NCBI GenBank assembly: GCA_010015805.1
Contig: ML978129.1
Location: 1,116,001-1,180,000, forward strand
Origin: Rhizodiscina lignyota
Taxonomy: Eukaryota > Ascomycota > Dothideomycetes > Aulographales > Rhizodiscinaceae
Length of the DNA: 64,000 nucleotides
Reading direction: 5' to 3'
The notes beneath the pieces were generated by a model, which saw only the letters and a list, made by a program, of their open reading frames with translations, ran no database searches and was not told the origin of the DNA. Shown piece by piece: positions 29,253 through 43,641 of the stretch. Numbering within the stretch: the stretch's first letter is position 1; each line of letters begins with the position of its first letter. The position numbers were made by a program, and so were the translations under genes.

Positions 29253-30325
29253 TCACCACAGCCCACCAATGCTGCCTCGACGCCTCGGTCTGTATCCACC
29301 ACCCGTAGGCATACCAGGCGGTCCGCCGAACGTCTCGCTCTCCGGTGCAGGCTCATTATGGGAAGGTGGTTGATTTCCATAACGTTCGACTTGCATGCCG
29401 AGACCTCTCCCTCGGGGATCTGGGTACCTCATCAAATCGGTACCGTGTCCAACACCACCGCGCCCCAATGGAGGAAATGGAGTCCTCATGACCATTTGAC
29501 CCATTCCTCCTCTACCGGACCCATTACCAACACGCTCCGATTGGGAAGAGGGAGCCCTCATAGCCATTTGGCCCATTCCTTCCATATCGGAGCCACCACC
29601 AACACGTTCGGGAGGGGGGAAGGGGTTTCTCATGACCATCTGGCCCATTCCTCCTGTGGCGCCATTTGCATGACTTTCTGGTGGTCGTTCCATGAGAGCT
29701 TGACCTGGAATGTAGGGTCTTCTGGGGTGGTTGATTCCGCCCAACCCCTCATGTTGGCCGTGAGCTGTTGGGGTCTGACCACTCATGGCTTGTATGCGGG
29801 CAATGTCCGATGCAGTTCCCCACAGCCGCTGATCATGAATTGCTCGGTCAACGTCTCTGATCATATGATGATCGCAATGAGCGACAATCCAGGCTGCTAG
29901 CTGTGGATCACGGCATTGAACTAATTCCACCGCTTCTCTTGGATCCGCCATATCAACATGGAACTGAGACCTGCTCACTCTCAGGTATATTCTCTGAGCG
30001 TAGAGATGAAGACCGTGTTTCGTGACGCAAACCTCGGCGGGATCGGCATGCCCGGAGCAGCCAAGTGGGTTTCCACAGTAGTGAGGTCTTGTTGGATCGT
30101 GCGAGGACATCTATGTGCGAGGTCAGTAAGTATTAGCTATACACAACATCATGGACTTGTACTGACAATGGCATAACAGGCATTGCAATAGCCTTGTGCA
30201 CGAAGATGTGCACACTCGGCTCTTCCGAATTCGTGTTCGTTTATTTGGAGTTCTCTGCCAGGCTGTGCTGGGTCGGCTATGACGTACATCGCCGGCTCCG
30301 CATAATGATTCCTATAACGATTCAT
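29253..30325 (-). CDS. Cys/His-module protein A with Gly-Met repeats (tandem paralogue)
   Basis: A 338-residue protein from two exons, 30167-30325 and 29253-30110, joined by a 56-nt phase-0 intron with branch TACTGAC. Exon 1 ends with CAHLRAQGYCNACYAI and exon 2 begins MSSHDPTRPHYCGNPLGC and continues SGHADPAEVC. Together they give C-x-H-x6-C-x2-C ... C-x5-C-x2-H-x5-C, which looks like a zinc-binding module that I cannot assign to a family. The C-terminal half is Gly, Met, Pro and Arg rich with three 24-residue repeats around GGMGQMVMR (72-nt DNA period) and ends in RPRRRGSIGGLW. The neighbour at 30911-31612 is a paralogue with the same intron position and phase. No signal peptide; function unknown. 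Confidence 0.75.
29487..29660 (-). repeat. 72-bp intragenic repeat, three copies
   Basis: Within gene A the block CAT(G/A)(A/G)CCAT(T/C)TG(A/G)CCCATTCCT (plus-strand view) recurs at 29487, 29559 and 29631, exactly 72 bp apart. Each copy encodes a GMGQMVMR/GMGQMAMR-centred unit of 24 residues. Confidence 0.75.
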
Positions 30326-30910
30326 GGCTGGTGTCGTCAAGCGGCAGGTCACGAACGTTGATAAGTTGATTGAGGAAGGAAGCTCTCTGTGAGAAGTGGT
30401 GGTTTATATACCCACAGAAAGGCGCTAGTATAGCGAACACCTCTGACACACAAAGCAGTGTTGCAGCTCAAGCAAACGATGTAGTTGACGGAAGTGTCGA
30501 AGTCACGGCTCAAGCTTTAAAGAGAATAGAAACAAAGGTACGACAGGTACGACAGGTACGACAGGTACGACAGGTACGACAGGTACGATGGCATGGCTTT
30601 TACACGTCCCATGACGACCTTTCTCTTATGCTCTTCACCGGCGCTTGCCTCCCTTCATCATTAGCGCATGATATCTGCCACTTTGAATAGCCGCCTGACA
30701 TATGGCAGGCGGCGCACTTTCGTGCACTACACACTTACGGTCATCAATGCGACAGACTGACGTATATTGGTTCATTAGCCTACTATCACAAGCAAGACAG
30801 CCTGGGAATGAGGCTACAAGATCTCTCAACGACAGGTCCAATGCTGCCGGACTCTGCATCCGTCGTGAAATGATATGCTGGAAACAGCCGCCCAATGACA
30901 ATCATGGCCA
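30326..30910. other. Upstream region of paralogue A
   Basis: Contains the 9-bp tandem repeat described separately. No other coding signal. Confidence 0.4.
30538..30591 (+). repeat. 9-bp tandem repeat GTACGACAG
   Basis: Five perfect copies of GTACGACAG at 30538-30582, followed by a degenerate sixth (GTACGATGG). It lies about 210 bp upstream of the ATG of paralogue A. Being a multiple of three, it is open in some frames, but no gene surrounds it. Confidence 0.9.
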
Positions 30911-31612
30911 CTATCTGGCCCATAAGGGCCCATTCCCCGAGTTCTTTTCGTCATATCGGCCTCCGCGACCTCTGCAAGCGCCACGTTGATTCCTCTGCTG
31001 TCTACCCCTGTGAGGGCCGGCGGGAAATACATCCAGTAGTCCTCCACGCCCAGGCGGTGGAAAAGTCAGTCGACCCCCAAAGACATTCAAGCCGCGAGCC
31101 GCGTTTGCTACCATCACAGAATTGACCTGGTTATGCATCGCTGTATCCACATTCTGAGCGACGTACTCGGCTTCCTTCGGATCCGAAATCTCCATCACCC
31201 AAGAGAGACGCGTGTGTCCTACGATGAGGGACCTTTGCAAGGCTCTGTCGCATACGAGAGAAAGTCTTTTTGAGCTGATGCAAACTCCGTGCTGATGTAC
31301 GTGACCGATGCATCCCCAAGGATTCCCACAGTTGTAAAGTCCACCTCGGGCTTCTGGAACAGGCTACGCGGAGCTTAAGCTGTGTCGATCTTACACTGGC
31401 TGAAGAATCGGACTTACCAGTTGGAAGCAGAGATCGCAAACTCCATATTGCCCCAGATGAACACAGCGAAAGAGCTCTAGGATCTCTTCCCTGGGTACGT
31501 GGACCGTTCCACCCGTAGATCTGGAGATTATCGTGAACACGTCCGCCATCGTCTGCCGATGTGCGTCGATATCTCGCTTTTGAGCTAGGCGATGCTGAAA
31601 AGGTGGGAGCAT
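30911..31612 (-). CDS. Cys/His-module protein B (tandem paralogue, RGG-rich tail)
   Basis: A 215-residue protein from exons 31418-31612 and 30911-31363 with a 54-nt phase-0 intron (GTAAGT donor, CGTAG acceptor). Exon 1 ends FRCVHLGQYGVCDLCFQL and exon 2 opens PVPEARGGLYNCGNPWGC followed by IGHVHQHGVCISS. These line up with paralogue A residue for residue at every Cys and His of the module. The shared downstream motif is ISDPKEAEYV here and MADPREAVELV in A. The tail is short and rich in Arg-Gly (GRGGLLDVF, CRGRGGRYDEK) and lacks the Gly-Met repeats. Two other acceptor AGs lie just after the chosen one but break the frame. Same strand and order as paralogue A, consistent with tandem duplication. 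Confidence 0.7.
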
Positions 31613-32145: not shown

Positions 32146-32958
32146 TTAGAACACCATCAGCCAACTCATTTCCTCAGGGTCTATTCCAGCAGCCATCAAT
32201 GCCTGCGCCATCCTGTTTCTTACCATGTCTTCCGTCATGGGCTGACCTTGGCACATCATCTCGACCCTCTGAATGATCTCTTCCGCCCTGGCAATGAGCT
32301 CCGCCCCTCTTGTCCGATTCTGTTCCGCGATCCTACGACGCTCACGCGCAGTTTCCAGTTCCTGTTCACGTGCCCCCATCCCCATGTCGCGATGACCATA
32401 TCCCGAGCCAGGCCGGCCGCCCAAGCCCATCGACGGCCTGCCGAATGGATCGTCCATGCCCATCGTGTTGCGTGGCATGCCGCCCATGTCCATACCACCC
32501 ATTGGACCACCACGTCCGCCGCGCCCCTGGCCCTGGCCTTGGCCTCGACCTCCCATTCCCCTTGGCCCGGCTCCCATACCTCCACGAGCCATCGGGTCTC
32601 CGTAAGGATCCATACCGGCCATGCCATGCTCAGCACGAGAATCCATGCCCGGCATGCCGGACATACCACGAGGATCGTGACCCATTGCCATGCCGCCGAA
32701 CGGGTCACCGCCCATCCCACCGCCCATCCCACCACCCATTCCACCACGGCCTCGTCCGGCCATCCCGCCCCGGCCTCGCATTCCGGGATGCCCCGTATTC
32801 GGAGGGCGGAAAGGACCACCTGGCTGTTGTCCGGACATTCGAGGATCGAAATCCTCTTCCATGTATGGGCCCTCTTGCTCCTCGGGTGAGACTATGCCCA
32901 CGCCGGGGATGTAGATCTCACCGGTACGTCGATTCCGCAGTGGGCGATCTCCGAACAT
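32146..32958 (-). CDS. Gly-Met/RGG-rich low-complexity protein
   Basis: A 270-residue intronless protein starting MFGDRPLRNRRTGEIYIPGV. Residues about 45-200 are almost only Gly, Met, Arg, Asp and Pro, with RGRGGMAGRGRGGMGG-like and repeated GMGG and GMGGD units, several RGG boxes and GQGQGQGRGGRGG. Such sequences are typical of RNA-binding or condensate-forming proteins and are arginine-methylation targets in other eukaryotes. The last 65 residues form a charged, predicted helical region (REQELETARERRRIAEQNRT, then MAQALMAAGIDPEEMSWLMVF). No RRM or KH motif is visible. The Met content is unusual for an RGG protein. The antisense strand is also open over much of its length because of the repetitive codons. 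Confidence 0.75.
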   Translation of the reverse strand: MFGDRPLRNRRTGEIYIPGVGIVSPEEQEGPYMEEDFDPRMSGQQPGGPFRPPNTGHPGMRGRGGMAGRGRGGMGGGMGGGMGGDPFGGMAMGHDPRGMSGMPGMDSRAEHGMAGMDPYGDPMARGGMGAGPRGMGGRGQGQGQGRGGRGGPMGGMDMGGMPRNTMGMDDPFGRPSMGLGGRPGSGYGHRDMGMGAREQELETARERRRIAEQNRTRGAELIARAEEIIQRVEMMCQGQPMTEDMVRNRMAQALMAAGIDPEEMSWLMVF

Positions 32959-34369: not shown

Positions 34370-34600
34370 TTATATGCCGACTATACCCCCGCGATGTGGA
34401 GCAGCCATACCACCTCGACTTGGACCGCCCCTACCACCGCGACCTCTGACAGCAGGGTAACCAGGATCCCGCACGGCCATCGTTCCCATACCGTTAGTCA
34501 GTGAGTTGAGGGCATTTTGTGACGCCGTGCATCGGACCGCAAACCTCGCTGGTTTTGAAAGGAAAAATCATATGGCGATTGTGTTTGTCGTGAATGCTAG
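34370..34600 (-). pseudogene. Decayed third copy of the Cys/His-module family
   Basis: The minus strand ends with an RGG tail (GYPAVRGRGGRGGPSRGG, then MAAPHRGGIVGI and a TAA at 34370-34372), similar in kind to the tails of paralogues A and B. Upstream, at about 34530-34565, the DNA resembles paralogue A around its EVCVTKHG codons: the plus-strand text GCAAACCTCG(G/C)(C/T)GG is shared. In this copy that stretch reads EVCGPMHG in a different frame from the RGG tail. No complete exon 1 or CGNP-x-GC motif can be found. It is best read as a degenerate host-gene duplicate. Confidence 0.4.
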
Positions 34601-34658: not shown

Positions 34659-35141
34659 GCAAACTTTTATGGACATAAGACTATTGTCCGAATTCTCCTG
34701 GGAGACATGCGTATCGACGTTAACTGTGCAACTAAATATGCCCCAACACCATTACAGGCCGCCATGTCCGCAGGACATCACCACATTGTCAGACTCCTTC
34801 TTGAGCATCCATCAATCGACGTAAATTATATCGGAACAGATCACATAGGAGCAACGCCCTTGGCCCTTGCCACAATATGCAGGAACACTGACCTTGTACG
34901 CACTCTCATTAGCCAGGATGACGTTCAAATCAATCAGATAAGCGGCTATGAAGAATCGACCGCACTATTTTTTGCTGTCGCAGATGGCCACACAAGCATC
35001 GTTGAAGAACTATTGAGACATCCAAAGATTGAGGTCAATATCAAGGATGGCATAGGACGTACACCCTTGACGATGGCAGCGTCGTGCGGCACTCCTGAGA
35101 TTGTCAACCTTCTACTGCAGCATGACGATGTGACGATTTGA
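34659..35141 (+). pseudogene. Truncated ankyrin-repeat gene
   Basis: An open frame of 160 codons made of about four ankyrin repeats: YGHKTIVRILLGDMRIDVN, TPLQAAMSAGHHHIVRLLLE, TPLALATICRNTDLVRTLIS, ALFFAVADGHTSIVEELLRH and TPLTMAASCGTPEIVNLLLQ. A TAA directly precedes the first repeat, and the first in-frame ATG (34707) falls inside a repeat, so the N-terminal part of the protein is missing. The repeats resemble those of the Zn2Cys6-ankyrin gene at 36920 in their spacing and D/I-x-V-N ends. It may be a 5'-truncated duplicate of that gene, or a gene with an unrecognised leading exon. Confidence 0.5.
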
Positions 35142-36919: not shown

Positions 36920-38994
36920 ATGAAGGAAACGGTATTGTCTGGGAGAAAGAAGCGAACACTCAATTACGACAAGTGCACGTATTGCAGAAAGGCTAAGAAA
37001 AGGGTTAGTGTATCGAAATGTTCTCTAACTCGGTTCCAGCCCGCGCTTCGCAGCCCTGTCTTTCAGTTCGTTGTGCTAAATATCATTCAATTCAATATAT
37101 AACCGATTGCGTACAGAAGGCTAGCACCGTTCCTCTGTGCGCCATGTCCATTAAACAAGAGTTACCGAGCTCAAGTTCTTTCTGTCACTTATTATCTGCG
37201 TTGAAAAGGAAACACTTTGATTTCTAAGGCTTTCCTTGAATCCCTACTCACTTGCTGGATTCCATACACTTGTCTTAGCTCTGCTGTCAGAACTGTTACT
37301 TGTGTGGATTGATGGCTATCAAGTACTGACACAGAGCAGTGCGAGCCAGTCACTCGTAAATGGCCAGGAGAGAAATGCAATCGCTGCCAAATCGAGGGGC
37401 TTCCATGTTCCGAAAATGAAGCACGAAAAGCTGGCGGGCGAACTTCAGCGCTATCCCCACCTGTTCCGTGAGTACATTAGAACTACACCATAACCATTGT
37501 AGACCTATTATCCCAGTTGTCCACTAATCCCATCGTAGCGACGATATCGAAACGATCCAGCATGCAACCATCGACTCAGATGCATGGTTCGATGGGCCAA
37601 TGCGGCAATTGCAAGATTTGTAAGCCATACTATAATCCCGTATCCTTCCAGTACCTAACCTTTCCGGTAGGCTTCTCAAGTCTGAAAGATCTGATTGGGA
37701 GCGACCTGGGCAGGTGAAACGACTGCTTACCTGCTTTGCTGCCCTGCACGACCTTAATGGACGAAGTTTAATCCACATATCCGCAATACACGGAGATCCG
37801 GAACTGTTCAAGCTTCTTGTTACGGGTACGAATGTCGATATCAATGCCAGAACCCCCTTTGGAGAGACTGCTTTGGGTCTGGCTGCACTCTATGGCCACC
37901 ACGCACTGGTCCAACTACTGGCTGATCGAGCAGACACCGATATGAACCTGGGCATTACAACTGGCGGGACAAATACAGCACCACTGACTATTGCAGTGAA
38001 TAGGCGCTACGAAGGAGTTGTAACAGTTTTCGCAAAGGATTTGCGGGTTAACGCTAATATCCGCGATACTTCCGGGAAAACACCGTTATGCCAGGCAATT
38101 CACCAAGGAGATGAGAACATCGCGATAATCCTTCTTCATCATGAAATGATCTTGGCCGATGATATCAGCGTAGACGAGCGGGCCCATGAACTACCTCTCC
38201 GACTCGCGGCGAGGCGAGGACTCCATCATGTTGTAAATGCCCTTATAGCTCGTCACGATGTGGATGTCAACAAAAAGAGTGGCTTGGAGAAGTCGAGTGC
38301 CCTCCACGCTGCTGCAACAGTCGGACAAAACCGAATAATTGAGATGCTATTGAAGCATCCCGACATTGATGTCAATTCTGTTGATATGCGCGACCAAACG
38401 CCATTGGCAGCTGCAATCAAGAATGGAGACTTAGATACCATCCAGATCCTACTCGATCAGCGCAAATGTAAAGCGACTGTGACAATGGAGAGCATGGGCA
38501 TGCATGTATTGAACAGGGAGGTGCGCCGAGTTCGCTGCGAGGATCACACGAGGATTTTTGTGAGCACCAATATCCAATTCATTAAGGATTTCTGGATCGG
38601 AGCATGTCTGAATAAACTGGAGAGGATCGAAGTGGCATTCTATTACTATTTACAGCCCACGGTGAGATCAGAATATTCTCATGGGCGGGTTTCTCAGTCG
38701 GTTAGCTTGGTCTTGAACTGGCATACAGACCTAATGAGCATTCTGCTGCAGCATCTCACTACCAGGGAACTAAACATGAAAGACAGCGACTCAACGACTC
38801 TGCTTATGAGAGCAGCATCATGCGGGAATGAGAATGTAGTCAGGATGCTGATGGAGCGAATCGATCTCGACGTGAACGTGGAAGATGCAACGGGAAACAC
38901 GGCCCTTCACATCGCGGAGCATAGTGGACGCGAGGCAATAGTCAAGCTGCTTAAGGAGAATAGCCATGTAGCATCAAGAGTATTCGGTTATTGA
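36920..38994 (+). CDS. Zn2Cys6 zinc cluster fused to ankyrin repeats
   Basis: A predicted 538-residue protein. Exons: 36920-37003, 37340-37467, 37539-37619 and 37671-38994, all in phase. The zinc cluster is assembled by splicing: KCTYCRKAKKR at the end of exon 1 and CEPVTRKWPGEKCNRCQIEG, then LPC, in exon 2. Cysteines at 19, 22, 29, 41, 44 and 51 fit C-x2-C-x6-C-x11-C-x2-C-x6-C exactly. Intron 1 is 336 nt, long for this window, with an ideal CTGAC branch and CAG acceptor. From about residue 125 the protein is a series of ankyrin repeats (for example TPFGETALGLAALYGHHALV, SALHAAATVGQNRIIEMLLK, TALHIAEHSGREAIVKLLKE), interrupted by a non-repeat stretch near residues 355-420. No fungal MHR domain is present. 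A sequence-specific DNA-binding protein with a protein-interaction platform is the natural reading. Confidence 0.75.
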
Positions 38995-41085: not shown

Positions 41086-43641
41086 ATGGCTCCTGCCGCG
41101 GAGCATCATCACCATCGCAGCACAACCAAAGCTGCCCAAAAGCCGTTCAAAGCGAGACATGCCACCAAGAGCGCTCTCAAGGAGCGATCAAAAGGTACAG
41201 TTCAATGCATAGTACAGGATTAGCATTAGTGGCTCACCATAAATATAGGAAAGATAGACGGCCTTGAGAAAGGCATACGCCGAACGCCTCACCAACACGT
41301 CATGTCGAAACTAAATCGCCGCAACCAAGCGAAGCAGAAGCGATTGACGCACAATCTGGAGCATGCAAAAGCAACAAGCGTATTTTCAGGTCGAGATGCC
41401 GCGCCAAGGATGGTTGCAGTTATTCCACTTTGCGATGACATCGATATACAAGATGCGGTGCGGAGTTTTAATAAAAGCGTGGAAATTCCGGAAGATGTAC
41501 CCGCAGATGGCTTTGTGCGCATCAACGTGGACAGGTTCAAGCAAAAGATAACATTCCTCCAAATTCGAAGAGATATGCTTGCGGCACTAGATGCATGCAG
41601 AGTCGCGGACTTTGTGGTCTTCGTGATGTCAGCCGAGCAAGAGGTGGATTCTTATGGGGAGCTGCTATTGAAGAGTATCGAGAGCCAGGGCGTATCCAGT
41701 GCCTTTGCAACAGTACAGGTGGGTGAATCGTAGCCATTAGTATATGCATTGACTAACTTGTTGTAGCATCTGGACAAAATTGAACCGGCCAAGAAACGAC
41801 CACAAGTCGCAGCATCACTCAAGTCCTTCATCACTCATTTCTTCCCAACGATTGAAAAAGTTACCTCGCTAGACTCTCGGCAGGAGAGTCTTAACCTTGT
41901 TCGATCCCTCTGCACATCTACACCAAAAGGTATAAGATGGCGCGAAGACAGGAGTTGGATGATGGTTGAAGACGTACAATGGCCCTCTGCAAAACAGCCG
42001 GATACTGGTGACGCTGCTAAGGGCGAGGTCATATTGACGGGAGTAGTGCGAGGAAAAAGTCTCAAAGCAGACAGACTTGTGCAAGTCGGCGACTGGGGAG
42101 ATTACCAAATTGAGAAGATCACAGCGGCGCCACTTGAGACAAAAAAGAAGGGCAAAGACGACAACATGATGGTGGATGAGCAGTCAAACGATATCCTAGA
42201 ACAGCCGTCGGCTGATCAGGATGATATGGTGGAGCTGGCGCCTGAAGAGGTGGTCATGCAGGACACAGCAGACATGGCTGTATCCGTCGCGACGACGTCT
42301 CGAAAGGGTGTGCTACTCGACGACCATCACTACTTCTCCGATGAGGAGGAATACGAAGCGCCAAAACCGAAACGGCTGCCAAGAGGAACTTCGGAATACC
42401 AGTCTGCTTGGTATCTAGACGATGTCTCAGACTCAGGCTCCGACCTAACAGATGTCGAAGATGCAGACGAGGACGTCAGTATGGGAGGCGGTCCTGTCGA
42501 GCCGGCAGATGGCATTGAAGGTCTTGCTGGACCAGAAGCAATGACTGAAGGAGGGCCATCGGAGTATCCTCAGTCTGAGATGTTCCTCGATCCATCGCCT
42601 GATGATGAGGCTGAAGAACTTGCAGCCTACCGTGCGTCACGAAAAAATGAGGCAAAAGAAGATCTTGAGTTCCCTGATGAAATTGAGCTTCATCCTCAAG
42701 TACTTGCGCGTGATCGTCTCGCGCGATACCGCGGGCTTAAGAGCGCCAAAACCTCGCCTTGGGATACAGCCGAGGATGCGCCTTTCGAGCCAGCAGAATG
42801 GCGGAGACTATTGACAATATCGGATTATGGGCTTGCAAAGAGGAAAGTGCTGAGAGAGTCAACCGATGGAGGAGTTAAACCCGGCACACGAGTACACGTC
42901 CATCTGCGTGATGTTCCGATCTCGTTGCAAACATCACACCAGTCCGGCAATGTGCTCGCAATGTTCCAGCTCCTCCGACACGAGCACAAACGTGTCGCCG
43001 CAAACTTCAGCATCACTCTCTCCTCTGACCTCGAAGCTCCTATCAAGTCCAAGGAGCAGCTCATCATGCAGTGCGGTCCGCGCAGGTTCGTCATCAATCC
43101 GCTCTTCAGCCAGGCAGGCAACACTCCGAACAACGTGCACAAGTTCGAGCGATGGCTGCATCCAGGGCGCTCAGCGATCGCATCTGCTATTACCCCTCTG
43201 ACATGGGGCGCTGTTCCTGTCCTTTACTTCAAGCAGACCTCCGATTCTCTTGAATTTGTCGGAACTGGAACGTCTCTGCCCCCCTCGCCTGCTCGCGTCA
43301 TCGCAAAGCGCATAATCTTGACAGGCCATCCATACAAGATTCACAAACGCCTCGTAACGATACGCTACATGTTCTTCAATTCCGAGGATGTGCATTACTT
43401 CAAGAGCTTGCCGCTGTGGACGAAAAGGGGTAGGAGCGGGTTTGTCAGGGAGAGTCTGGGCACGCATGGGTACTTCAAGGCTGTGTTTGATGGCAAGATC
43501 AACCCCATGGATGCCATTGGCGTTAGTTTGTGGAAGAGATGTTGGCCGAGGAGTGCGAGGCTATGGAGTGGGGTTGTAGACACTGAATCTCATGAGGCAG
43601 ACGGGGATCACGGCTTTGCCGGAATGATCACAGGCGTCTAG
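41086..43641 (+). CDS. TSR1: Ribosome maturation factor for 40S subunits
   Basis: GTPase-like but catalytically inactive factor that binds pre-40S particles and blocks premature initiation-factor binding. Exons: 41086-41194, 41249-41718 and 41767-43641, in phase, giving 817 residues (yeast Tsr1 is 788). Landmarks: a His-rich start (MAPAAEHHHHRSTTKAAQKP), MSKLNRRNQAKQKR, the degenerate GTPase domain (ACRVADFVVFVMSAEQEVDS), the AARP2CN region (DWGDYQIEKITAAPLETKKK), an acidic insert (YFSDEEEYEAPK, DSGSDLTDVEDADEDVS) and the C-terminal RIBIOP domain (GTRVHVHLRDVPISLQTSHQ, FKAVFDGKINPMDAIGVSLW, KRCWPR). The P-loop is missing, as in the family. Divergent from UTP7. Confidence 0.95.

Follow-up and report, generated by a model that had tools for sequence, protein, structure and literature searches.

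The window, a 64,000-nucleotide stretch of contig ML978129.1 of Rhizodiscina lignyota, belongs to a genome of 33.4 Mb that is divided among 29 contigs. Its introns of the GT...AG type are short and its open frames are closely packed on both strands, features that suggest a filamentous fungus. Two predicted genes, here called A and B, are arranged head to tail on its minus strand, with 585 nt between the ATG of A (30325) and the end of the stop codon of B (30911). The exons and introns listed here are predictions from splice models made by inspection and with a script.

30325-29253, minus: gene A, 338 aa, two predicted exons
30167-30325, minus: gene A exon 1, 53 aa, ending in C-x-H-x6-C-x2-C (30214-30176) and three further residues
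30111-30166, minus: gene A intron, phase 0, 56 nt, donor GTCAGT, branch-like CTGAC, acceptor ATAG
29253-30110, minus: gene A exon 2 with stop codon, C-x5-C-x2-H-x6-C at 30077-30027
29948-29931, minus: gene A ADPREA
29852-29829, minus: gene A VDxAxHxQ
from 29786, minus: gene A tail, rich in Gly, Pro, Arg and Met
29441-29656, minus: three in-frame 72-nt (24-codon) repeats in the gene A tail, GMGQM(V/A)MR
31612-30911, minus: gene B, 215 aa from the outer ATG, 194 aa from the inner ATG at 31549
31418-31612, minus: gene B exon 1 from the first ATG, C-x-H-x6-C-x2-C at 31465-31427 and three further residues
31364-31417, minus: gene B intron, phase 0, 54 nt, donor GTAAGT, acceptor GTAG
30911-31363, minus: gene B exon 2 with stop codon, C-x5-C-x2-H-x6-C at 31330-31280
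31186-31169, minus: gene B SDPKEA
31150-31127, minus: gene B VDxAxHxQ
from 31087, minus: gene B tail, rich in Arg and Gly

The predicted intron of gene A is 56 nt long, which is no multiple of three, and splicing is therefore required for an in-frame module; that of gene B contains an in-frame TAA and an in-frame TAG. A TATA-like TATATAAA stands about 85 nt 5' of the gene A start codon. In gene B the corresponding TATAAAT (at about 31644) is about 95 nt from the inner ATG and just 32 nt or so from the outer one, and because of this short distance the inner ATG (MADVF) appears to be the likelier start. The interval between the two genes carries a perfect 9-bp tandem repeat at 30536-30588 (AGGTACGAC, 5.9 copies). 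Elsewhere in the neighbourhood, on the plus strand, are an ankyrin-repeat ORF at 37636-38994 (Pfam Ank_2, E 1.4e-44) and a second open frame at 34659-35141 that looks ankyrin-like by eye.

Joined across the junction, the two halves give the same module in both genes, C-x-H-x6-C-x2-C-x3 on the exon 1 side of the phase-0 intron and x11-C-x5-C-x2-H-x6-C on the exon 2 side. The earlier note had described a common Cys/His pattern split by an identical phase-0 intron, and both parts of that description are borne out: the eight residues agree in every spacing, and in the modelled genes the intron interrupts the x14 linker at one and the same residue, three residues past the last exon 1 Cys of the module. 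Over the 44 residues, all eight candidate ligands are identical between A and B, as against 8 of the 36 other positions (counted by hand on the alignments), a measure of ligand conservation that amounts to one comparison of two sequences. All six module Cys are common to the pair, and the Cys outside it (Cys119 and Cys132 in A, Cys103 and Cys195 in B) have no shared counterpart. The linker is 14 residues long in both copies, with zero identical residues. In six-frame translations of the window, C-x5-C-x2-H-x6-C occurs twice, in A and in B (mean over 20 shuffles, 0.2), and C-x-H-x6-C-x2-C three times, in A, in B and at 42926 on the plus strand (shuffle mean, 0.35), so the first half by itself is a weak pattern.

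The relationship of the two genes extends further. A single BLASTP comparison of A with B gave 47 bits (E=1e-11) over an aligned stretch that is 30% identical. Their Smith-Waterman score of 117 was reached by none of 2000 shuffles (maximum 62), nor by any of 2000 in which the Cys/His positions were held fixed (maximum 109), and this second result shows, by a narrow margin, that the similarity goes beyond the Cys/His skeleton. On these sequence comparisons A and B are tandem paralogues, as had been proposed.

The N-termini ahead of the module have no detectable similarity, their score being reached by 4566 of 5000 shuffles. Downstream, the (S/A)DP(K/R)EA motif noted earlier is indeed present in both, as ADPREA in A and SDPKEA in B, and the score of the segment that ends there was reached by 14 of 5000 shuffles. 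Further on, both proteins carry VDxAxHxQ, a motif absent from the earlier note (segment score reached by 5 of 5000 shuffles), with about 20 additional residues between the two motifs in A as compared with B. The tails had been set apart as Gly-Met repeats versus RGG. The A tail (177 residues; 22% Gly, 14% Pro, 10% Arg, 8% Met) does contain three repeats that B lacks, two of them 71% and 69% identical to the reference copy, but the B tail (58 residues; 22% Gly, 17% Arg) is likewise Gly/Arg-rich, and each has two RGG. The contrast between the tails is one of degree, not of kind. No signal peptide was evident by eye in either protein.

Upstream of B, a minus-strand ORF of 270 aa (32146-32958) is rich in Gly, Met and Arg and lacks the Cys/His module. 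It has no Pfam match and, among the matches listed in a genome search, found its own place only. The tail of A aligns with it at E 1.9e-4 (filters off), an alignment that we take to reflect shared composition.

Protein queries against the 33.4 Mb genome returned, among the matches listed, A and B and no further copy. In this search the exon 2 pieces of A and B find each other at E 3.2e-4 and 4.3e-4, and a third copy as diverged as these would therefore probably be detectable, though the search scores its best candidates alone (two for each exon 2 query). Within the window, a module profile built from A and B recovered the four exon frames of the two genes, the next-best place lying at E 0.13. 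A short minus-strand stretch at 34370-34548 is weakly like gene A and has a Gly-rich, tail-like frame: its Gly-rich part (34507-34403 and neighbouring pieces) matches A by tblastn at E 0.02 (no filters or composition adjustment), and there is a 24-nt match to A at 34525-34548 (79%). It is perhaps a relic copy, and the profiles do not support this; a third copy near 34.5 kb was set aside, as the tail-repeat profile gave no listing there up to E 10 and the module profile none up to about E 9.6. Among 29 pattern stretches in the viral_contigs collection and 150 in genome_contigs, no relative was confirmed, and these collections, described as viral and prokaryote sequence, have little bearing on fungi.

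Searches of family libraries gave no credible match common to A and B in Pfam, NCBIfam, PHROGs or the PDB sequences, in agreement with the earlier note, to which no named family with this pattern was known. A two-sequence A/B profile against PDB likewise found no match up to E 10. In Pfam, A gave sub-threshold matches to DUF4653 (E 0.12) and Zn_ribbon_bTOP1 (PF21372; E 0.22 to 0.79), and B had none up to E 10 with HMMER filters on; Zn_ribbon_bTOP1 was dismissed, as A reaches 10 to 11.8 bits against a Pfam cut-off of 27. NCBIfam matched A alone to signal peptidase I (E 0.13), and PHROGs linked A and B to one unknown family each (E 0.15 and 0.19), which they do not share. In PDB, A matched five GH45-like endoglucanase sequences (E 0.0063 to 0.0078) and B alone a sterol 14-alpha demethylase (E 0.39). 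These were rejected because each involves one paralogue, and because the endoglucanase V alignment drops the common pattern, omitting the C-x-H and C-x5-C-x2-H residues. In neither protein does Pfam report an RRM, a KH or another known RNA-binding domain. Cys/His-rich families without a name are not uncommon in fungi, and "unrecognised" here means unmatched in the libraries searched by sequence, as distinct from a new fold. In open-licence PMC full text, queries that included literal motif strings returned no paper on the module, the one item listed being a broad review of how genes originate (PMC12193501).

The coding signal of both genes is weak. Codon preference log-odds are -0.011 for A and -0.044 for B, compared with 0.044 to 0.161 for ten reference ORFs, a gap that is overstated in that the same ten ORFs trained the score. 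Of 3000 random 450-nt frames, 11% scored as high as A or higher and 18% as high as B or higher (22% and 15%, respectively, for the module parts), and each gene has a wrong frame that outscores the true one (frame +1 in A, at 0.017; one reverse frame in B, at -0.010). Such values are compatible with fast-evolving accessory genes and do not in themselves establish coding. AlphaFold models had mean pLDDT values too low for a confident structure, 38.3 for an input of part of B through its intron plus parts of the A exons and 44.5 for the exon 2 parts alone.

Could the pair instead be decaying or non-functional, an old duplication whose expression has been lost? The weak codon preference and the strong divergence outside the module would suit this idea, but the frames are open, the splice sites are clean, and the eight residues are kept in both genes although the aligned stretch is so diverged. 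Moreover, differences between A and B are most frequent at third codon positions (29, 26 and 35 at positions 1, 2 and 3 over 60 codons), a modest excess, and we regard decay as very improbable. A different question is how the ligands are shared out. Two independent zinc sites might follow one another, one per exon, so that the intron would separate two small fingers instead of splitting a single domain. Each exon alone supplies four of the eight common residues, and the intron does sit in the 14-residue linker, but C-x-H and C-x5-C would be unusual as pairs in one small site, and a free linker needs no such match as the equal length seen here in the face of zero identity. The kept length of x14 is a weak argument, yet it is the one that favours a cross-brace over sequential sites, which we consider unlikely.

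Alternatively, the module may have a known zinc fold (treble-clef, or like that of UBP, AN1 or the B-box) from which it has diverged too far for profiles made from two sequences to detect. Read in order, its ligands (C,H,C,C,C,C,H,C) resemble those of the type 2 B-box (zf-B_box, PF00643), in which the last may be C or H and which likewise packs eight ligands into a short module; the 'CxHL...CG...GH' stretch recalls zf-UBP (PF02148), with its C-x-H-L start and CG...GH; and C-x5-C-x2-H followed by a late Cys recalls the end of zf-AN1 (PF01428; C-x4/5-C-x2-H). The sub-threshold Zn_ribbon_bTOP1 score, in A only, points the same way. The spacings, however, are unlike those of any of the three families. 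The B-box runs C-x2-H-x7-9-C-x2-C-x4-C-x2-C-..., and C-x-H-x6-C-x2-C-x14-C-x5-C-x2-H-x6-C departs from it in most linkers, with x14 and x5 in place of short B-box linkers, so membership by spacing was rejected. From zf-UBP it differs in ligand number and spacing, and from zf-AN1 in its first half, in the x14 linker and in lacking the second His. The earlier note had named a known zinc-finger match as the result that would tell against it, and zf-UBP, zf-AN1 and zf-B_box are all absent from the Pfam results for A and B. Searched against the genome, the three models gave, among the matches listed, 7 places for zf-UBP (4 over the cut-off), 6 for zf-AN1 (2 over) and 2 weak ones elsewhere for zf-B_box (none over), with none at A or B. 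Together with the empty Pfam result for B, this leaves a known fold as a doubtful explanation.

The most likely reading is that A and B are locally duplicated, fast-evolving genes that encode a compact, putative di-zinc module and a disordered RG-rich tail. We postulate that one ancestral gene was duplicated in tandem long ago and that the copies have strongly diverged since. Each would encode a compact 44-residue Cys/His module whose eight candidate ligands would suffice for two zinc ions; that they bind two is plausible, given the conservation of the ligands and general knowledge of such modules. The most likely arrangement is a putative cross-brace, in which the C and H of exon 1 would pair with the two Cys at the start of the exon 2 half, and the two Cys of exon 1 with the final H and C, so that interleaved ligands would lock together the two exon-encoded halves. 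Next would come a short segment, probably a helix (DP(K/R)EA ... VDxAxHxQ), and then a probably disordered Gly/Arg-rich tail, in a protein that is probably intracellular. Gly/Arg-rich C-terminal tails with RGG are also found in a kind of RNA-binding protein that A and B resemble in this respect, but from which they differ in that Pfam reports no known RNA-binding domain in them. Because of these RG-rich tails it is tempting to speculate that the proteins are RNA- or protein-binding adaptors, in which the zinc module would make the specific contact and the tail a general contact with nucleic acid or condensates. Taken as a whole, an account of ancient tandem duplicates encoding an intracellular protein with an eight-ligand putative zinc module, a helical segment and an RG-rich tail seems to us about evenly balanced between right and wrong. 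The bolder proposal, a di-zinc fold not yet described, about 44 residues long, that spans an exon junction, is confined to a fungal lineage and is coupled to rapidly changing RG-rich tails, is possible and rather unlikely.

At present, A and B represent one further uncharacterised family. If a new zinc module proves true, the catalogue of metal-binding folds would gain one small family, and A and B would offer a clear example of duplicates that hold on to metal ligands, an intron position and two short motifs as their tails drift apart. Of practical value is the module pattern itself, which is precise enough for searching other fungal genomes.
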